Positions 1,237 to 8,629 of a DNA stretch of 64,000 nucleotides are shown piece by piece. Below the pieces are notes generated by a model. That model saw only the letters and a program-made list of their open reading frames with translations. It did no database searches and was not told the DNA's origin. The stretch comes from Sphingomonas daechungensis (GTDB lineage: Bacteria > Pseudomonadota > Alphaproteobacteria > Sphingomonadales > Sphingomonadaceae): the NCBI RefSeq assembly GCF_014489495.1, contig NZ_CP060780.1:1-64000 (forward strand), given 5' to 3'. The translations under genes and the position numbers were made by a program. The first letter of the stretch is position 1. The number at the start of each line of letters is the position of its first letter.

Positions 1237-2141
1237 GCTTGCCACTCGTTGCATTCCATCCACGTTGCGCACGCCGCCTTCGCCAGATCGCGTACCCGCC
1301 CGATGTAAGCCTGGCGCTCAGCGACGGAGATCACGCCCCGCGCCTGCAGCGTGTTGAAGATGTGGCTGGCCTTGATCGCCTGCTCATAGGCCGGGATCGG
1401 TAGCTTGTTCGAAACGCAATTCTCGCTCTCGGCAGCAGCCTTGCGGAACAGGTCGAACAGGCTGTCCGTGTTCGCGACCTCGAAATTGTAACGCGATTGC
1501 TCCTTCTCGTTCTCGAGAAATACGTCGCCGTAGGTCACGCCCGCGTCGTTGAACTTGAGGTCGAAGACATTGTCGACGCCCTGGATGTACATCGCGAGCC
1601 GCTCCAGCCCGTAGGTCAACTCACCGGTGACAGGCTTGCAATCGAAGCCACCAACCTGCTGGAAATAGGTGAATTGCGTGACTTCCATCCCGTCACACCA
1701 GACTTCCCAGCCAAGGCCCCAGGCACCAAGCGTTGGGCTCTCCCAATCGTCCTCGACGAAGCGGATGTCGTGCTTCAGCGGGTCAATTCCGATCTCGATC
1801 AGGCTTCCGAGATATAGCTCCTGCAGGTCGGGCGGGCTCGGCTTCAGAACGACCTGATACTGGTAATAGTGCCCGAGGCGGTTGGGGTTATCGCCGTAGC
1901 GGCCGTCGGTCGGCCGGCGGCTCGGCTGGACATAGGCTGCCTTCCACGGATTGGGCCCAAGCGAACGCAAGACGGTGGCCGGGTGGAAAGTCCCTGCCCC
2001 CATTTCCATGTCGTACGGCTGCAGGAGAACGCAGCCCTGCGCGCTCCAGTAGCGATGCAGCGTAAGGATCAGGTCCTGAAAGCTGAGGGCCAAAACCGGA
2101 AACTCGTTCGTTGGTGGATGTTCCGCGAGGCTTTGGCGCAT
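1233..2141 (-). CDS. glyQ: Glycine--tRNA ligase alpha subunit
   Basis: Catalytic alpha chain of heterotetrameric glycyl-tRNA synthetase. The core is unmistakable: [19 protein letters not shown], then [32 protein letters not shown] and [18 protein letters not shown], the class II active-site segments. The start is uncertain: 2141 (303 aa) is chosen, 2183 (317 aa) is possible, and a TTG just before LALSFQDL would give the more usual length near 290. It is divergent from the TraB-like gene at 2222 and forms an operon with glyS. Confidence 0.96.
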
Positions 2142-2221
2142 CGATTCCAAGCGGGCAAGTGGACGCTTGGCGATCGCATTCATACATCCGCCGTCAAGCA
2201 GCAGATGCGCAAAGGATTTCG

Positions 2222-3121
2222 ATGTTGAGAAAATTGATCCGCCGCGGCCTCGCCGCCCTCGGGCTGGTGACCGTCGCAGCGAGCGGCACGCCGGCAATCG
2301 CTCGATCATCCAATGCTCCTGCGCTCTGGGAGGTCAAGGACAAGGACACCACCGTCTATTTGTTCGGGACCATCCACCTGCTTCCGAAGGATCAGTCGGC
2401 CTGGCGCACGCCCAAGTTCGACAAGGCTGTCCAGAATTCGCAGACGTTGGTGCTGGAAACGTTGATCGACACCGCCAATCCGCAGCAGCTCGGATCGATC
2501 ATGGCAGCGCTTGGGTATTCGAGCGGCCTCCCGCCGATTGCCGACCGCGTTCCCGCGGCCAAGCGTCCGCAACTGGAAGCAGCGATCGCCAAGACCCAGA
2601 TCCCGCGCGCTATGTTCGACCGCATGGAAACCTGGGCAGCGTCCTTCACCTTGCTCGGCGTACAATTCCAGATGCTTGGAGTCGAAGGCGAGCAAGGCGT
2701 CGAGGCCGTGCTGCGCAAGTCGTTCGCGGCGGCCGGCAAGCCGGTCGGCGAGCTGGAAACCAATCGCGAGCAACTGAGCTACTTCGACAGGCTGCCCGAA
2801 GAGGCCCAGCGCAACTTGCTAGAAGGATCGATCGAAAACCCCGAAGCGATGCGTTCCCAGTTCGCGCAAATGCTGCAGGCCTGGCTGAGCGGCGACGTCA
2901 AATCCATCGGCAACTCCTTCAACAAGGATCTTGAGGGATCGCCTGAACTGAAGGCCGCCCTCCTCACGCGCCGGAACTACAACTGGAGTCAGTGGATCGA
3001 ACGCCGGATGACACAGCCGGGCACGGTCATGGTCGCTGTCGGCGCGGGCCATCTCGCAGGTGACGGTTCGGTCCAGCAGTATCTGCAGAGCCGCGGCTAC
3101 AAGGTGAAACGCCTTCAATAG
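2222..3121 (+). CDS. TraB/GumN family protein, paralogue 1
   Basis: Exported protein of 299 aa in the TraB/GumN/PrgY superfamily, which includes the animal TIKI metalloproteases; the bacterial function is mostly unknown. It starts with a signal peptide (residues 1-28, ending near PAIARSS). Both family signatures are present: LFGTIHLLP, with GTIH at about 49-52, and [12 protein letters not shown], with GAGH near 274-277, the putative metal-binding GxxH motifs. It is the first of three paralogues within 3.7 kb. The ATG at 2222 is chosen because it starts the signal peptide. Family assignment is firm; peptidase activity is inference. Confidence 0.9.
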
Positions 3122-3133
3122 CGTCTGCATATC

Positions 3134-3148
3134 CTGACATAAAGTCAG
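3134..3148. promoter_or_regulatory. Operator-like inverted repeat CTGAC-N5-GTCAG (copy 1)
   Basis: A perfect palindrome, CTGACATAAAGTCAG, lies just after the first TraB-like gene and 7 bp before a TTGACA -35-like hexamer. The same 15-bp architecture recurs at 3192-3206, and a further GTCAG at 3181-3185 overlaps the predicted -10. The arrangement suggests binding sites for the XRE regulator encoded from 3230, giving autoregulation. The binding protein is inferred. Confidence 0.55.
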
Positions 3149-3154
3149 GTAATA

Positions 3155-3183
3155 TTGACACACACCCGAATCGCCTCTATGTC
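3155..3183 (+). promoter_or_regulatory. Candidate sigma70-type promoter of the XRE/membrane-protein operon
   Basis: A consensus -35 TTGACA at 3155-3160 is followed by a 17-bp spacer and a weak -10 TATGTC at 3178-3183. It is flanked and overlapped by GTCAG/CTGAC operator-like half-sites. It would drive the regulator gene starting at 3230. The -35 match and the spacing are seen directly; activity is inferred. Confidence 0.45.
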
Positions 3184-3191
3184 AGGTTGTG

Positions 3192-3206
3192 CTGACTATA
3201 TGTCAG
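3192..3206. promoter_or_regulatory. Operator-like inverted repeat CTGAC-N5-GTCAG (copy 2)
   Basis: CTGACTATATGTCAG is a perfect 5-bp-arm palindrome with a 5-bp spacer, the same design as the copy at 3134-3148. It sits between the predicted -10 and the regulator start codon, a typical repressor position. Together with GTCAG at 3181-3185 it makes five half-sites in about 75 bp. Confidence 0.55.
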
Positions 3207-3229
3207 TAGGACATGACATGGGAGCGGCG

Positions 3230-3439
3230 ATGGAGAATCGTCTCAGAGTCTTGAGAGCGGAGCGCGGCTGGAGCCAGGCCGAGCTTGGCGGCCGACTTGG
3301 CGTTTCGCGCCAGGCGGTCAACGCCATCGAGACCGGCAAGCACGACCCGTCGCTCCCGCTCGTGTTCAAGATCGCACGGCTTTTCGAGCTGCCGATCGAG
3401 AGCATCTTCAACGACGAGGTGAGCGATGGAAACCGGTGA
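3230..3439 (+). CDS. XRE/Cro-family helix-turn-helix regulator
   Basis: Small DNA-binding protein of 69 aa made almost entirely of one HTH_3 domain: RLRVLRAERGWSQAELGGRL, then GVSRQAVNAIETGKHDPSL, with the helix-turn-helix at about residues 15-34. This is the YozG-like short Cro/CI type. The ATG at 3230 follows GGGAG with good spacing and starts just ahead of the domain; in-frame starts at 3155 and 3218 would add residues not typical of the family. The frame overlaps the next gene by 14 bases. It probably represses its own promoter through the CTGAC/GTCAG repeats. Confidence 0.88.
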   Translation: MENRLRVLRAERGWSQAELGGRLGVSRQAVNAIETGKHDPSLPLVFKIARLFELPIESIFNDEVSDGNR

Positions 3440-3854
3440 GGGCGAACGCCTGCACTCGCAGCAGCGTAAGCGGTTTTGGTCGATTCTTGCGGCGCTGGCC
3501 GGTGTTGGGCTGGTCGCGGGATTTGCGAGCGGGTTCGCTGCCGGCTTCTTCGATGCCGGCGGAGGAGTGGGATCGCCGATCGTGCTTTTCGTTGGCGCGG
3601 CGGGTGTCGCTCTGTTCGTCGTCGCCGTCGTCTATGGCAGCTGGCGCTTCTTCGTGAACGCGGATGAAGTGGAGGTCAGCGATAACCTGTGGGCATCGCT
3701 GATCGGCTTCTATTTCTACGCAATCGCCTTCCCCGCCTGGTGGTGTCTCTCGAAAATCCGGGTCGTTGGCGAGCCTAACGACTGGGTCATCTACGCGGCA
3801 ACCATCGTCATCGCGACCGGCGCATACGCATTCCGCAAATGGCAATCACGCTAA
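3426..3854 (+). CDS. Predicted four-helix inner-membrane protein
   Basis: Protein of 142 aa with no family I recognise. After a charged N terminus (METGEGERLHSQQRKR) there are about four hydrophobic segments, near residues 19-41, 51-73, 88-107 and 119-136. It overlaps the XRE regulator by 14 bases, so the two are surely co-transcribed. Small XRE regulator plus multi-TM protein pairs recur in bacterial genomes, often as autoregulated envelope modules. The function here is unknown, and it lies inside the TraB/GumN gene cluster. Confidence 0.75.
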   Translation: METGEGERLHSQQRKRFWSILAALAGVGLVAGFASGFAAGFFDAGGGVGSPIVLFVGAAGVALFVVAVVYGSWRFFVNADEVEVSDNLWASLIGFYFYAIAFPAWWCLSKIRVVGEPNDWVIYAATIVIATGAYAFRKWQSR

Positions 3855-3879
3855 GATCCTCGAACATAAGGGAGTTCAC

Positions 3880-4788
3880 ATGCTGAAACTGAGGTTCGCA
3901 TTTCTCGCTACCGCTTTGGCCTGCGCTTCGGCTGTCCAGGGACAGGCTCCCGCGACTGCGCCTGCGCCTGCACTTCCAGACGCCGATCCTGCAATCTGGG
4001 TCGTCAAGGATCCGGATACGACCATCTATCTGTTCGGGACGTTTCACGCGCTCGACGGAAAGTCGGCCTGGTTCAACGACGAGGTCAAAGCGGCATTCGA
4101 TCGCTCGAAGGAGTTGGTTCTCGAGATTCCGCCGGTGGACGATCCCGCCAGCATTCAGCCGATCATCATGAAGTATGCACTCGACACATCGGGCAAGCCC
4201 CTATCGGATCGGCTTTCGCCGGCGACAAAGGAAAAGTTCGTCGCCGCCCTTGCGAAGCTCGGAGCCCCGCCGAACGCATTCGACAAGTTCACCCCATTCT
4301 TTGCAGCCCTGACGCTTACAATGGCGAACGCGCAGAAATTGGGAATGACCGCCGCGAACGGGTCCGAAGCTGTCCTCACCAAGGCGGCCAAGGATGACAA
4401 GAAGCCGATCAGCGGTCTCGAAACGATCGAATATCAGATGTCGATCTTCGCAAACCTGTCGGATGCCGAGCAGATTGCCATGCTAGAGCAGACGCTCGAC
4501 GAGCTCGATGAGGTGGCTGGGCTCTTCAAGAAAATGAACGACCACTGGTCCAAGGGTGATTCCGAAGGAATGGCTGCGCTGATCAACGAAATGAATGCAA
4601 AATCTCCCAAGCTTTACAAAGTGCTGTTGACGGACCGCAACGCCAATTGGGCGGAGTGGATCGACAAGAGGCTCGATCAGCCGGGTGTCGTGTTCGTTGG
4701 CGTTGGCGCCGGGCACCTCGGTGGCGAAACGAGCGTCCAGGCATTGCTCGCCAAGCGCGGGATCAAGAGCGAACGCCTGACGCAGTGA
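3880..4788 (+). CDS. TraB/GumN family protein, paralogue 2
   Basis: Second TraB/GumN paralogue, 302 aa. It has a signal peptide (residues 1-22, ending near VQGQA), then an Ala/Pro-rich linker (ATAPAPALPDADP), then AIWVVKDPDTTIYLFGTFHA with GTFH at about 53-56, and a C-terminal GAGHLGGETSV near 276-279. The ATG at 3880 follows an AAGGGAG ribosome binding site. It is 25 bases after the membrane-protein gene and could be in its operon. It is closer to paralogue 3 (shared LFGTFHALDGKS and WFNDEV) than to paralogue 1. Confidence 0.9.
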   Translation: MLKLRFAFLATALACASAVQGQAPATAPAPALPDADPAIWVVKDPDTTIYLFGTFHALDGKSAWFNDEVKAAFDRSKELVLEIPPVDDPASIQPIIMKYALDTSGKPLSDRLSPATKEKFVAALAKLGAPPNAFDKFTPFFAALTLTMANAQKLGMTAANGSEAVLTKAAKDDKKPISGLETIEYQMSIFANLSDAEQIAMLEQTLDELDEVAGLFKKMNDHWSKGDSEGMAALINEMNAKSPKLYKVLLTDRNANWAEWIDKRLDQPGVVFVGVGAGHLGGETSVQALLAKRGIKSERLTQ

Positions 4789-5084
4789 GGGGTTTTAGGA
4801 ACGGCAACAGGATCAGGAGATTGAATGGATTCCGCGCGCTGAAAAAAGGGACGTACTCCACTCGTCGCGAATAATTCGCTTCGCGCTGAATTCGCTAGAC
4901 TTTTCTTAATCTGTTGGTGACCATCATCGCCGGATATCGGGCTGGGGGGCCACGATGAACCGGATGCTTGGGCGCGCCGCAGCGCGAAGGAGACCAAACG
5001 GGGGCGACTAGTCGTCCGCGAACGCTGCCAGTCGTCCATGTGCCGGCCAATCCCCTCTCCGCTCGCTGGGTGTGGAGACCTGGG

Positions 5085-5891
5085 ATGCTTGCTGCGCTGA
5101 TTGCCGCTGCCGTCACGACAACGCCGGTTCCGCCGGCGTCGCCTACCCCCCGCCCGAACGTCCATCCGGCTCTGTGGGTGGTCAACGACGAAGACACGAT
5201 CATCTATCTGTTCGGCACGTTCCACGCGCTCGACGGCAAGAGCGAGTGGTTCAACGACGAGGTCCGCACGGCCTTTTCCGGCTCGGAAGAACTCGTCCTC
5301 GAAACCATCGTCCCGGACAGCTTGAAGAAGCGGGTCCCGCAAAGGCCTGCTCCGCAGGGCGTAGGGATGCAGACGGTCGGTCCCTTCGCCGGGTCGGCGA
5401 GCTTTCTCTCGACCAGCAAGATGGTGATGTCCGCCGGTCGCTCCCAAGGCATGTCTACGGACCATGGCGCGGACGCAATCCTGCGCGAAGCTGCTGACGA
5501 TGCCGGCATGCCGGTCAAAGGACTGGAAACGTTCGACTTCCAGCTTGGAATGTTCGGCAAGATGCCGGGCGCCAAGCCGCCTGCCAATCCCACGGAAGCC
5601 GCTCGCACGAAAGCAGCAGTGGCCGCCGTTCTTGCCCAGCTTCAATCCGACTGGAACCGCGGCGACGTGGAGGGTTTCGTGCCGATGCTGGAGCAGATGG
5701 AAGCGCGCTCTCCGGCAACATACAAACTGCTGTTCAACGATCGGAACAACCGCTGGGCCTTCTGGATTGCAAAGCGTCTCCGGCAGCCTGGCGTGGTCTT
5801 CGTCGCCGTGGGTGCCGGGCACCTGGCCGGCAAGGACAGCGTCCAGCAGAAGCTTAGCCTCTACGGTATCCGAACGGCCCGGGTGAACTGA
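5085..5891 (+). CDS. TraB/GumN family protein, paralogue 3
   Basis: Third TraB/GumN paralogue, 268 aa, with a short hydrophobic N terminus (MLAALIAAAV), a Pro-rich linker, LFGTFHALDGKS with GTFH near 44-47, and GAGHLAGKDSV near 243-246. The middle is shorter and more divergent than in the other two copies. An in-frame start at 4968 exists, but the added residues are basic and precede the signal-like segment, so the ATG at 5085 is preferred. The 296 bases between paralogues 2 and 3 hold no gene that I can support. Confidence 0.85.
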   Translation: MLAALIAAAVTTTPVPPASPTPRPNVHPALWVVNDEDTIIYLFGTFHALDGKSEWFNDEVRTAFSGSEELVLETIVPDSLKKRVPQRPAPQGVGMQTVGPFAGSASFLSTSKMVMSAGRSQGMSTDHGADAILREAADDAGMPVKGLETFDFQLGMFGKMPGAKPPANPTEAARTKAAVAAVLAQLQSDWNRGDVEGFVPMLEQMEARSPATYKLLFNDRNNRWAFWIAKRLRQPGVVFVAVGAGHLAGKDSVQQKLSLYGIRTARVN

Positions 5892-6003
5892 CAGCGCAGT
5901 AACTTGCGCTAAAGAGGCCTCTCGCCTATAGGCGCGCCCTTCCCGGCCAATGTCATCCCTGGAGGCGTGGCGGGAAGCAACTCTATCAAGGAACACGCAA
6001 AAA

Positions 6004-6672
6004 ATGAGCGATCAGCTGACGCTGCCCGCCGAAACGCGCGACTGGGCTGGCAAGGGAGCCTCCCGCGAACTGCGTCGTGGTGGACGGGTACCGGCCGTTG
6101 TGTACGGCCAGAAGAAGGAAGCCCTCTCGATTCACGTCGAAGAGAAGCTCCTCACCAGGATGCTCCAGACGGGGCACTTCATGAATTCCGTCGTCATGGT
6201 CGAGGTCGGCGGCAAGCCGACCCGAACGCTGCCGAAGGCCGTGGACTTCCACCCGGTTTCGAGCCGCCCGATCCATGTCGACTTCCTGCGCATCAGCGAG
6301 CACACCAAGGTGAACGTCGCTGTCCCGATGCGCTTCGACAACGAAGACGCTTCGCCGGGTCTCAAGCGCGGTGGCGTTCTCAACGTCGTCGTCCACGAGC
6401 TCGAGATCGTCTGCGACGCGGCCCACATCCCGAGTGAGATCCACATCCCGCTCGACGGGCTGGAGATCGGCGATTCGATCCACATCAGCAATGTGAAGCT
6501 GCCTGAGGGCGTCAACCCGGCGAACTCTGAAGAGGATTTCACCGTCGCGACGATCGTCGCTCCGTCGGCCATGAAGTCCGAGGAAGAAGAAACGGCCGCT
6601 GCCGATGCGGTTCCGACCGTCGACAGCGACGAAGGCGAAGGCGACGCTGCCGAGGGCGGCGAGGAAGCCTAA
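6004..6672 (+). CDS. rplY: 50S ribosomal protein L25 (Ctc form)
   Basis: 5S-rRNA-binding ribosomal protein L25 of the long TL5/Ctc type, 222 aa. The N-terminal L25 domain reads [18 protein letters not shown] then [11 protein letters not shown]; the C-terminal beta domain includes [19 protein letters not shown]. An acidic tail rich in Glu, Asp and Ala (about residues 185-222) is typical of alphaproteobacterial L25. The ATG at 6004 is preceded by AAGGA. A strong terminator separates it from pth, its usual neighbour. Confidence 0.96.
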
Positions 6673-6698
6673 GCTTTCTTCCAATGCGAAAACCGAAG

Positions 6699-6731
6699 CC
6701 GCTCATCCGAAAGGATGGGCGGTTTCTTTTT
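6699..6731 (+). terminator. Rho-independent terminator after rplY
   Basis: A 10-bp stem (CCGCTCATCC / GGATGGGCGG, one G-T wobble) closes a GAAA tetraloop and is followed by TTTCTTTTT. It lies 27 bases after the rplY stop and before pth, so pth needs its own promoter or read-through. Confidence 0.88.
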
Positions 6732-6758
6732 GTGCCGCCCTCACGCTAGGTGAACGCG

Positions 6759-7340
6759 ATGCAGATTTGGGTGGGCCTTGGAAATCCAGGCGCGAAATAC
6801 GCGCTTCACCGGCACAATGTCGGAATGATGTCTGCCGACATCATTGCGGAAGTGCACGGCTTCGGCCCGTGGACCAAGAAATTCCGCAGCCTCATCTCCG
6901 AAGGCCGCATCGGCCGTCACAAGGTCCTGCTGGTGAAGCCGCAGACCTTCATGAACGATAGCGGCGATGCAGTTCAGCAGGCGCTGCACTTCTACAGGCT
7001 CGATGAGGAGGCGCTCACCGTCTTTCACGACGAACTCGATCTCGCTCCTTTCAAGGTAAAGGTTCGCGTCGGCGGCGGACTCGCCGGCCACAACGGGCTA
7101 CGATCGATCAACGCCTCACTCGGCCCCGACTTCCGCCGCGTCCGCATCGGCATCGGCCACCCTGGCCCCGGCCAGAAAGAAAAAGTCACGCCCCACGTTC
7201 TCGGCAACTATCACAAGATCGAGATGGAGGAGCTTTCCGACATGCTCGCAGCGATCGCAGCCGAAGCCGAATGGCTCGCCGATGGGGACGACGTGCGCTT
7301 CATGAGCGAAGTCGCTCGCCGCCTGCAGGACGACGCATGA
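6759..7340 (+). CDS. pth: Peptidyl-tRNA hydrolase
   Basis: Recycles peptidyl-tRNAs released from stalled ribosomes by cleaving the ester bond. The 193-residue sequence shows MQIWVGLGNPGAKYALHRHN (catalytic His in RHNVG), LLVKPQTFMNDSG, VFHDELDL and GGLAGHNGLRSI, all Pth signatures. The ATG at 6759 is chosen because AGGTGA lies six bases upstream; a GTG at 6750 is possible. Its stop overlaps the next start (ATGA). Confidence 0.96.
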   Translation: MQIWVGLGNPGAKYALHRHNVGMMSADIIAEVHGFGPWTKKFRSLISEGRIGRHKVLLVKPQTFMNDSGDAVQQALHFYRLDEEALTVFHDELDLAPFKVKVRVGGGLAGHNGLRSINASLGPDFRRVRIGIGHPGPGQKEKVTPHVLGNYHKIEMEELSDMLAAIAAEAEWLADGDDVRFMSEVARRLQDDA

Positions 7341-7930
7341 TCCGTTCGCTGTTCGTCACCAAGCTCTACGAAGCCATCATTGCAGACGACCTGCTGAACG
7401 ATCTGGCGTATTCGATCCGAAGCTTGGCAGAAGATGACAAGGCCGGTCAGCGCTGGTCCAGCGAGCACCGGTATGCCGGTTACACCAGCTACGCGTCGCT
7501 CAACGACCTCCCTCGTCGCGACCCTGCAATCGGCGACCTGGCCAAGCTGCTGACAAAGCACGCGTCCGAATTCGCCAAAGATTGCGCCTTCGACCTCGTG
7601 CGGAAGCCGAAGCTCGATAGCCTATGGGTCAACCTCTTGCGCGGTTCCGGTCATCACAGCGCGCACATCCACCCGCACAGCGTCATCTCCGGCACGCTTT
7701 ATGTAGAAGTACCGAAAGGCTCGGGCGCCATCCGCTTCGAGGACCCTCGCCTGCCACTGATGATGGTGGCGCCGACACGAAGGCCTGACGCGCCTGAAGA
7801 CCTCCAGTCATTCGTGACTGTCCAGCCGCGACCAGGGCTCCTGCTTCTTTGGGAGAGCTGGCTTCGCCACGAGGTCCTCCCCGGCAGCGGCCGCGGAGAA
7901 CGCCTGTCGATCAGCTTCAACTTCGCCTGA
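7337..7930 (+). CDS. Putative 2-oxoglutarate/Fe(II)-dependent oxygenase (TIGR02466-like)
   Basis: Protein of 197 aa resembling the 2OG-FeII_Oxy_5 / TIGR02466 family. Candidate iron ligands lie in HHSAHIHPHSVISGTLYVEV and in SWLRHEVLPGSGRGERLSIS, where the second His precedes an Arg that would bind 2-oxoglutarate. The substrate is unknown. The ATG overlaps the pth stop by 4 bases, so it is translationally coupled to pth, an unusual partner. It converges with the GST gene, whose stop codon begins at the next base. Confidence 0.82.
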   Translation: MIRSLFVTKLYEAIIADDLLNDLAYSIRSLAEDDKAGQRWSSEHRYAGYTSYASLNDLPRRDPAIGDLAKLLTKHASEFAKDCAFDLVRKPKLDSLWVNLLRGSGHHSAHIHPHSVISGTLYVEVPKGSGAIRFEDPRLPLMMVAPTRRPDAPEDLQSFVTVQPRPGLLLLWESWLRHEVLPGSGRGERLSISFNFA

Positions 7931-8629
7931 TCAGTCCTTCGACGGGATCATCAGTCCGCGTTGAACGGCCGGGCGAGCGAGCCCGCGTTCCAGCCATGCC
8001 GGGACGTTCGACAACGCGTCGAACGCAACCAAGTCCCGAGCGTCGTAGAAGCCAATCAGGTTCCTGACCCAGCCGAGCAGGGAAATGTCGGCGATGGAAT
8101 AATCGTCCATGATCCAATCGCGACCCTGCAAGCGTTCGTCGAGAACCTTCAACAGACGCTTTGATTCGTCCGCAAAGCGCTGGAGCGGTCGCTTGTCCTC
8201 CCAGTGACGCCCCGCGAACTTATGGAAGAAGCCAACCTGTCCGAAGAATGGTCCAACGTGGCCAACCTGCCAGAACACCCACTGCATCGTCTGATAGCGC
8301 CGGGCGCCCTCCGGCAGGAGTTGACCCGTCTTGTCGGCCAGATAGACGAGGATCGCCCCGGATTCGAACAAGGCGATCGGCTCGCCATCCGGCCCTTTCG
8401 GATCGATGATGGCCGGGATCTTCCCGTTCGGGTTGAGCGACAGGAATTCTTCCGTCCAGCTTTCATTCTCGCCGATGAGTACGAGGTGCGGCTCATACTC
8501 CAGCCCGACTTCCTCCAGCATGATAGAGACCTTCACCCCGTTGGGTGAGTTGATGGAGTAGAGCTGGAGGACATCGGGGTTCGCGGCTGGCCAGCGGCGC
8601 GTGATCGGAAAGGTTGGGAGGTCGCTCAT
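7931..8629 (-). CDS. Glutathione S-transferase, YghU/YfcG type
   Basis: Cytosolic glutathione transferase of the Nu class (YghU/YfcG), 232 aa. The thioredoxin-fold N domain contains LQLYSINSPNGVKVSIMLEE, where SPN is the glutathione-contacting turn, then LNPNGKIPAIIDP and ALFESGAILVYLADK. The helical C domain has WVFWQVGHVGPFFGQ and YSIADISLLGWV. These enzymes often have disulfide reductase activity toward glutathione conjugates. The ATG at 8629 follows a long in-frame extension that comes from the repeat at 8711 and is not coding. Confidence 0.92.
   Translation of the reverse strand: MSDLPTFPITRRWPAANPDVLQLYSINSPNGVKVSIMLEEVGLEYEPHLVLIGENESWTEEFLSLNPNGKIPAIIDPKGPDGEPIALFESGAILVYLADKTGQLLPEGARRYQTMQWVFWQVGHVGPFFGQVGFFHKFAGRHWEDKRPLQRFADESKRLLKVLDERLQGRDWIMDDYSIADISLLGWVRNLIGFYDARDLVAFDALSNVPAWLERGLARPAVQRGLMIPSKD

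Follow-up and report, generated by a model that had tools for sequence, protein, structure and literature searches.

What does a gene for a small DNA-binding protein do in the middle of a row of genes for TraB/GumN proteins, and which of them does it govern? The first 64,000 nucleotides of contig NZ_CP060780.1 of Sphingomonas daechungensis (the window) raise this question. Between glyQ and rplY, five genes lie on the + strand: TraB1, TraB2 and TraB3, which encode TraB/GumN proteins, and, between TraB1 and TraB2, XRE, the gene of a helix-turn-helix (HTH) regulator, and TM4, the gene of a membrane protein. A preliminary description of this DNA had placed three TraB/GumN genes around an XRE/four-transmembrane module, and its coordinates are exact. 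We computed gene content, synteny, residue conservation, the conservation and placement of palindromes, empty sites, the single origin of a short TraB form and fold resemblance. In the best reading, which we hold to be rather probable, XRE and the membrane protein form an autoregulated switch, and what it drives is an exported hydrolase of the Tiki fold. The features that carry the argument are the following:

2222..3121, + strand: TraB1, TraB/GumN protein of 299 amino acids, probably exported (PF01963, E 7.5e-69, 232.9 bits)
3122..4860, + strand: cassette XRE-TM4-TraB2 plus its own upstream region, ~1.74 kb, without counterpart at this site in loci L065 (genome G040) and L082 (genome G060)
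3135..3147, no strand: operator-like palindrome O1, TGACATAAAGTCA, of the form TGAC-N5-GTCA, one of two in 64 kb
3155..3183, + strand: putative promoter placed by eye, TTGACA at 3155-3160, 17 bp, candidate -10 box TATGTC at 3178-3183
3193..3205, no strand: second TGAC-N5-GTCA palindrome, TGACTATATGTCA, close to the expected transcription start
3230..3439, + strand: XRE, single-domain HTH regulator of 69 amino acids, alternative start at 3218 (HTH_3, E 1.5e-15, 57.3 bits)
3426..3854, + strand: TM4, four-helix membrane protein (by model) of 142 amino acids, overlapping the XRE gene, without family match
3880..4788, + strand: TraB2, TraB/GumN protein of 302 amino acids, 25 bp downstream of TM4 (PF01963, E 3.1e-78, 263.7 bits)
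4861..5039, + strand: TraB3 leader, conserved in two cassette-free relatives
5040..5891, + strand: TraB3, short TraB/GumN protein of 283 amino acids with a GTG start (PF01963, E 1.6e-44 in two stretches, 153.2 bits)

On the alignments with relatives, XRE, TM4 and TraB2 are a separate cassette of ~1.74 kb. In L065, window positions 2001-3120 align to 5755-6878 and window positions 4861-6098 to 6896-8137, with only 17 bp between the two matches. The flanks are thus joined there without XRE, TM4 and TraB2, and the cassette is missing at that site. The three genes are also missing in L082, where 544 bp of window-unlike sequence lie between TraB1 and TraB3. These two loci come from the two nearest relatives examined. 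The G+C contents of TraB2, XRE and TM4 are 58.2%, 62.9% and 61.3%, respectively, and that of the window is 62.8%.

The wider context was drawn from a PF01963 search of 61 genomes of the genus, own included, of which 56 matched; the TraB clusters of all 56 were compared, together with two stray loci. The upstream flank glyQ (1233-2186, - strand) is present on the fetched stretch in 54 of the 56 TraB loci and the downstream flank rplY (6004-6672, + strand) in 44, indicating that the arrangement is not chance. Between them the content varies, with one to four TraB genes and an XRE gene in 22/56. On a tree of 56 rows built from glyQ, rplY and pth (the gene at 6750-7340, behind rplY, is presumably pth-like), the window is the sole XRE carrier in its 13-row clade (starred support, 99). 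The presence of XRE requires 12 changes on this tree, at least eight of them forced by starred branches, and gain and loss are indistinguishable. Since this presence is clustered (12 changes versus 17.6 in shuffles), related loci are not independent, and an independent-pairs test of XRE against TraB2 gave a median p of 0.125, with too little power.

The association of XRE, TM4 and TraB recurs far beyond this locus. Among the 22 XRE loci of the genus, the TM4 frame was found by profile in 19 and a TraB gene comes next in 20; in the other two a subtilase follows (L041, the same locus as L127 from Sphingomonas arenae) or the contig ends (L091). The window TM4 protein, used as a query, gave 21 matches in 18 of the 61 genus genomes, own included, each at a TraB locus. 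A TM4 profile matched 63 of 249 genomes of the family, in 34 of 96 genera, and four of 289 genomes in a sample of the class, own included and all of this family. The best 30 of the 74 profile matches (window included), which served as family loci, are all XRE-TM4-TraB; nine weaker matches had E above 1e-9, one of them in the own genome next to the XRE relative at 2434265. XRE loci were taken as the best 80 of 519 relatives in named genomes, a choice biased to near relatives of TraB-linked XRE, and in these TM4 is present in 75, TraB lies downstream in 73 and both are found in 71. The trio is kept in 13 of 17 full-length loci having neither glyQ nor rplY, some of them near relatives of one another. 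Sphingomonas rhizophila (L126) is among the named carriers of the trio.

In several loci another hydrolase gene stands in the place of TraB. In L127 (8657-10609) a subtilase gene (Peptidase_S8) directly follows XRE-TM4, and in L201 an S33/S9-like hydrolase follows XRE and a membrane gene. An M13 peptidase follows XRE and a small membrane protein gene in L179 (8699-10798) and, by eye and split over two frames, in L181 (8702-10709), the membrane protein in both being present but unscored by the TM4 profile. L246 contains a second XRE gene of the genus, and an alpha/beta hydrolase comes after it; in L151 the contig ends where TraB would follow XRE. A probably autoregulated HTH gene with a membrane partner and a probably exported enzyme that can be swapped for a peptidase argues for an envelope-response switch with an exported hydrolase as its output. 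The S. daechungensis genome itself holds three further strong XRE relatives, at 1303620, 2754977 and 2434265, the first of which lies behind a membrane protein gene.

XRE shares 68-84% identity with 14 relatives, in which the stretch SRQAVNAIETGK is invariant. TM4 has no match in Pfam (E <= 0.1), NCBIfam (E <= 0.1) or PADLOC (E <= 0.01). Its model (predicted local distance difference test, pLDDT, 89.0; predicted template modelling score, pTM, 0.66) contains helices at 5-42, 51-78, 81-110 and 119-141 and gave no match in the Protein Data Bank (PDB) at E <= 0.001. Searches of solved structures by sequence returned mostly designed helical bundles and other unrelated chains. The most conserved TM4 positions are G6-E7, D80-E81 and W105. 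In the model, the D80-E81 turn would be cytoplasmic if the N-terminus is inside, and could then touch XRE. Two tandem TM4-like genes stand behind XRE in L035, L067 and L077. A reading as a defence system was unsupported, as PADLOC gave HTH-type matches for XRE only and none for TM4 or the TraB proteins at E <= 0.01.

Small overlapping genes with upstream palindromes and a patchy presence (the 12 changes, at least eight forced) are also what a toxin-antitoxin pair would show, with XRE as HTH antitoxin and TM4 as membrane toxin, next to the TraB genes, and XRE does match antitoxins of the Y4mF/HipB type. These matches fall below the curated cut-offs (42 versus 71.65 bits for TIGR03070, 24.6 versus 79 for PRK09726), for which reason a type II system is not favoured, and a toxin-antitoxin pair does not need the TraB gene that follows in 73 of the best 80 XRE loci. 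We consider this explanation quite improbable.

How XRE might act is suggested by the palindromes. The preliminary description had called the XRE/membrane pair autoregulated, and this is probable: TGAC-N5-GTCA occurs exactly twice in the 64-kb window, at 3135 and 3193, both times upstream of XRE. A set of 118 XRE-upstream regions (27 kb, those of relatives among them) contains 71 such sites, versus 125 in 1.98 Mb of loci, a total that includes those 27 kb and some overlapping loci. An exact site is present in 53 of the 118 regions, and several others have an extra gene before XRE. Of the 24 exact sites in 57 genus loci (677 kb), 21 are located no more than 900 bp upstream of an XRE end, and 15 of the 22 genus XRE genes have one upstream. 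By contrast, none of the 112 TraB genes in these loci has the palindrome directly upstream. In the own genome (3.0 Mb), TGACANNNNGTCA occurs six times and the control not once; two of these palindromes are those described here and a third precedes the membrane gene and its XRE neighbour at 1303620. With one mismatch allowed, the commonest spacings between palindromes are 21 bp (29 pairs), 40 and 61 bp (14 each) and 57 bp (10), while spacings of 8, 29 and 32 bp (10 each) stem from ten Sphingomonas loci. TTGAC is often found 20 bp past the first palindrome in relatives. Many loci in L094-L203 (Erythrobacter and other genera) have an extra frame, often hydrophobic-ended, that runs into the XRE start and parts the palindromes from XRE.

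The placement of the sites, mostly before XRE operons and never directly before TraB, fits local autoregulation, and the position of one putative site close to where transcription is expected to begin makes XRE more likely a repressor. The same placement suggests that XRE probably controls itself and TraB2, the third gene of its putative operon, rather than TraB1 and TraB3 through promoters of their own. The preliminary description had gone further and suggested that the XRE/membrane pair could control all three TraB genes. Such control, whether through a shared regulon or through read-through, would suit five genes on one strand, a gap of only 251 bp between TraB2 and TraB3 and a scan that saw no terminator in that gap. 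However, neither TraB1 nor TraB3 has an exact palindrome upstream, which agrees with the count of zero among the 112 genus genes, and two relatives in which XRE is missing still have the conserved TraB3 leader. Moreover, XRE is absent from 34 of the 56 tree rows, 24 of which carry a short TraB. We therefore regard control of all three genes as unlikely. Inside the TraB3 leader, an 18-codon frame runs from ATG to TAG at window positions 4955-5011, with a start conserved in G040; it is possibly a leader peptide, or chance.

The enzyme that the switch would drive belongs, as had been proposed for all three copies, to the TIKI-like superfamily. TraB1, TraB2 and TraB3 match PF01963 with 232.9, 263.7 and 153.2 bits against a gathering cut-off of 26.8, the match being full-length for the first two and split for TraB3, and their translations keep GTIH, GTFH and GTFH, respectively, together with GAGH. 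No other PF01963 gene was found in the 3.0-Mb assembly (completeness 86.6%). Tiki proteins share a His-Glu pair, a second His and a basic residue (PMC6254334, in excerpt), and all of these are found in the three copies, equivalence being by alignment position; the strand-end Glu, the LET Glu and the Arg are complete in all three. One Tiki-fold protease is reported to be metal-independent (PMC6254334). After removal of 7 of 116 rows that were fragments or had broken frames (L039_2, L039_3, L065_2, L065_3, L065_4, L085_1 and L090_2), the alignment comprised 109 TraB domains. Of the two His residues, that of GTxH is present in 108 rows and that of GAGH in all 109; the strand-end Glu is likewise present in 109, the LET Glu in 108 and the Arg in 107. 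The one long row without the first His and the LET Glu is L043_2. Hydrophobic N-termini are present on all three proteins, so that each is probably exported, and the compartment in which TraB2 acts is probably also that of TraB1 and TraB3; for TraB3, the leader segment requires the GTG start at 5040, or an internal ATG.

The TraB3 model (pLDDT 84.8, pTM 0.82) gave no Foldseek match at E <= 0.001. By Z score it most resembled a subunit of Tetrahymena complex IV (Z 10.9, 213-216 residues aligned) and then ChaN (Z 6.0). Several unrelated chains at 5.1-5.5 ranked next, before HopBA1 (4.3), EreC (4.0), RRSP (3.9) and BcR135 (3.4-3.5); among these matches, ChaN, HopBA1 and Bcr135 are Tiki superfamily members (PMC6254334). 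As ChaN is the second-best distinct fold match, the TraB proteins could, rather than being hydrolases, bind metal or haem in the envelope, in the manner of ChaN or with a link to copper, and the cassette could be an answer to metal stress; in the excerpted account of Erwinia amylovora, a TraB/GumN gene is induced by copper with copA and cueO, at a log2 fold change of 2.5-3.6 (PMC12542790). Against this explanation, no metal-handling gene was found among seven window proteins scanned. The genes that replace TraB are mostly peptidase-like and the Tiki active-site Arg and Glu are kept in the window copies. We judge it to be rather unlikely, and still prefer an exported hydrolase.

Tandem triplication of the three copies had been suggested in the preliminary description; as a recent event it is rejected, as the copies fall in old, separate clades of a TraB tree computed without the central columns (starred support values are named as such) and were gained and lost independently. 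TraB1 falls in a 41-row genus clade (98, starred). TraB3 is one of 33 short rows that form a clade of single origin (99, starred), nested in a 47-row group (98, starred) with TraB2 and 13 other long rows. The central stretch measures 31-52 residues in short rows and 69-76 in long rows (48 in TraB3, 72 in TraB2); about 25 central residues are thus fewer in the TraB3 clade, in a segment that follows the strand-end Glu. Within the short clade, the GTxH His, strand-end Glu, LET Glu, Arg and GAGH His are kept in 33, 33, 33, 31 and 33 of the 33 rows. The separate old clades and the single-origin short form indicate that, on this phylogeny, all three genes represent old lineages, with the short form as a stable variant. 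The preliminary description took length differences as a sign of diversification for different substrates, and the central shortening is the only concrete hint of it.

A shorter protein with a GTG start could also be a decaying copy without function, as might be read from the three-frame spread of the TraB3 copy in G040 and the loss of the Arg in 2 of the 33 short rows. A single origin of 33 rows, the good model and the retention of both His and both Glu in all 33 speak the other way, and we regard TraB3 as a dead copy as very improbable. The G040 copy itself (L065, 7077-7972) reflects a broken gene or sequencing errors; other genomes have intact copies.

For binding and repression by XRE, sensing by TM4, and the export, hydrolysis and substrate of the TraB protein, we infer the following scheme. 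XRE, TM4 and TraB2 would be transcribed together, as a small cassette that regulates itself and responds to the envelope. XRE would bind the TGAC-N5-GTCA palindromes around the -35 box and the start of its own promoter and keep the operon low. TM4 would be its partner in the inner membrane, sensing an envelope condition and altering XRE activity. On relief of XRE, TraB2 would be made and exported as a hydrolase of the Tiki fold, most likely one that cleaves peptides or esters; its active site would use the GTxH His and the strand-end Glu, together with the Arg and the GAGH His. The paralogues TraB1 and TraB3 would be older residents of this locus, and their transcription would be separate from that of the cassette. 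More tentatively, and with doubt outweighing confidence, XRE-TM4 may be a distinct two-protein class of transmembrane signalling in sphingomonads, dedicated to exported peptidases, in which TM4 passes an envelope or peptide signal straight to DNA-bound XRE without phosphorylation, the exported TraB (or its S8 or M13 substitute) destroys the signal or the damaging agent and so closes a feedback loop, and gains and losses affect the cassette as a whole.

Several observations weigh against an autoregulated switch with a hydrolase as its output. Five of the best 80 XRE loci have no scored TM4, and the cargo is not strict, a TonB_C gene being present in L147 and no hydrolase seen in L169. The own genome has a weak TM4-profile match at 2433685, beside the XRE relative at 2434265, with no TraB found there. 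Seven of the 22 genus XRE genes lack an exact site within 900 bp upstream of their end, three of the six own-genome palindromes (G000:C1 311266, 648036 and 1651631) lie away from the XRE relatives found, and a consensus promoter scan called none upstream of XRE. The best match of the TraB3 model is a respiratory-complex subunit, and the Z scores of 4-6 for ChaN and EreC are weak, as an unrelated phosphoserine phosphatase (5.5 and 5.1) and MutT1 (5.4) are comparable. ChaN is a haem binder, and hydrolysis by TraB proteins is therefore not assured. The short rows L075_2 and L076_2 have Pro instead of the Arg. Finally, the 2His/2Glu set described in PMC6254334 includes a Glu two residues before the first His. 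This Glu was not found in the 109 rows, in which the position is Thr in 107 and Ser in two; the difference has no bearing on PF01963 membership.

Each component is of a known kind. TraB/PrgY/GumN proteins (PF01963) and the Tiki superfamily (Tiki, PrgY, EreA/B/C, ChaN) share with the genes described here the Pfam match, GTxH, GAGH, the strand-end Glu and the Arg; here, however, the gene is built into an XRE-membrane protein operon, TraB3 has ~25 central residues fewer and Thr, not Glu, stands two residues before the first His. LytTR Regulatory Systems, as excerpted, pair a regulator with a membrane inhibitor and are autoregulated (PMC6193735). They resemble the cassette in their two-gene regulator/membrane-protein operon. 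Their own promoter carries repeated regulator sites; the TGAC-N5-GTCA palindromes upstream of XRE, which are candidate sites at a putative promoter, also repeat, with recurring spacings. Unlike those systems, the regulator here is of the HTH_3/XRE type without a LytTR domain, the palindromes lie before and behind the putative -35 box, suggesting repression, and TM4 matches are confined to one family in the class sample. In YgzD/YozG-like pairs, XRE regulators are paired with small membrane proteins. A small single-domain XRE adjoins a membrane protein there as here, whereas TM4 has no Pfam or NCBIfam family and its usual cargo is an exported hydrolase. Among the matches listed from one open full-text literature collection, seen in excerpt, there was no description of the XRE-TM4-TraB operon, the palindrome array, the cassette behaviour or the short TraB3 clade, and excerpts of the matches listed for bacterial GumN-type proteins in the open full-text literature gave no settled function.

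TraB/GumN proteins are common in sphingomonads, and their linkage in an operon to a small regulator, whose candidate operator can be read from the sequence, would give a direct handle on them, since what relieves XRE would point to the physiological setting of the enzyme. If this reading is true, the cassette would be an XRE-based addition to the small number of regulator/membrane-protein pairs described so far, one for which close relatives offer empty sites. The arrangement is common to many sphingomonads and may be a simple way for them to monitor their envelope and turn on production of an exported enzyme.

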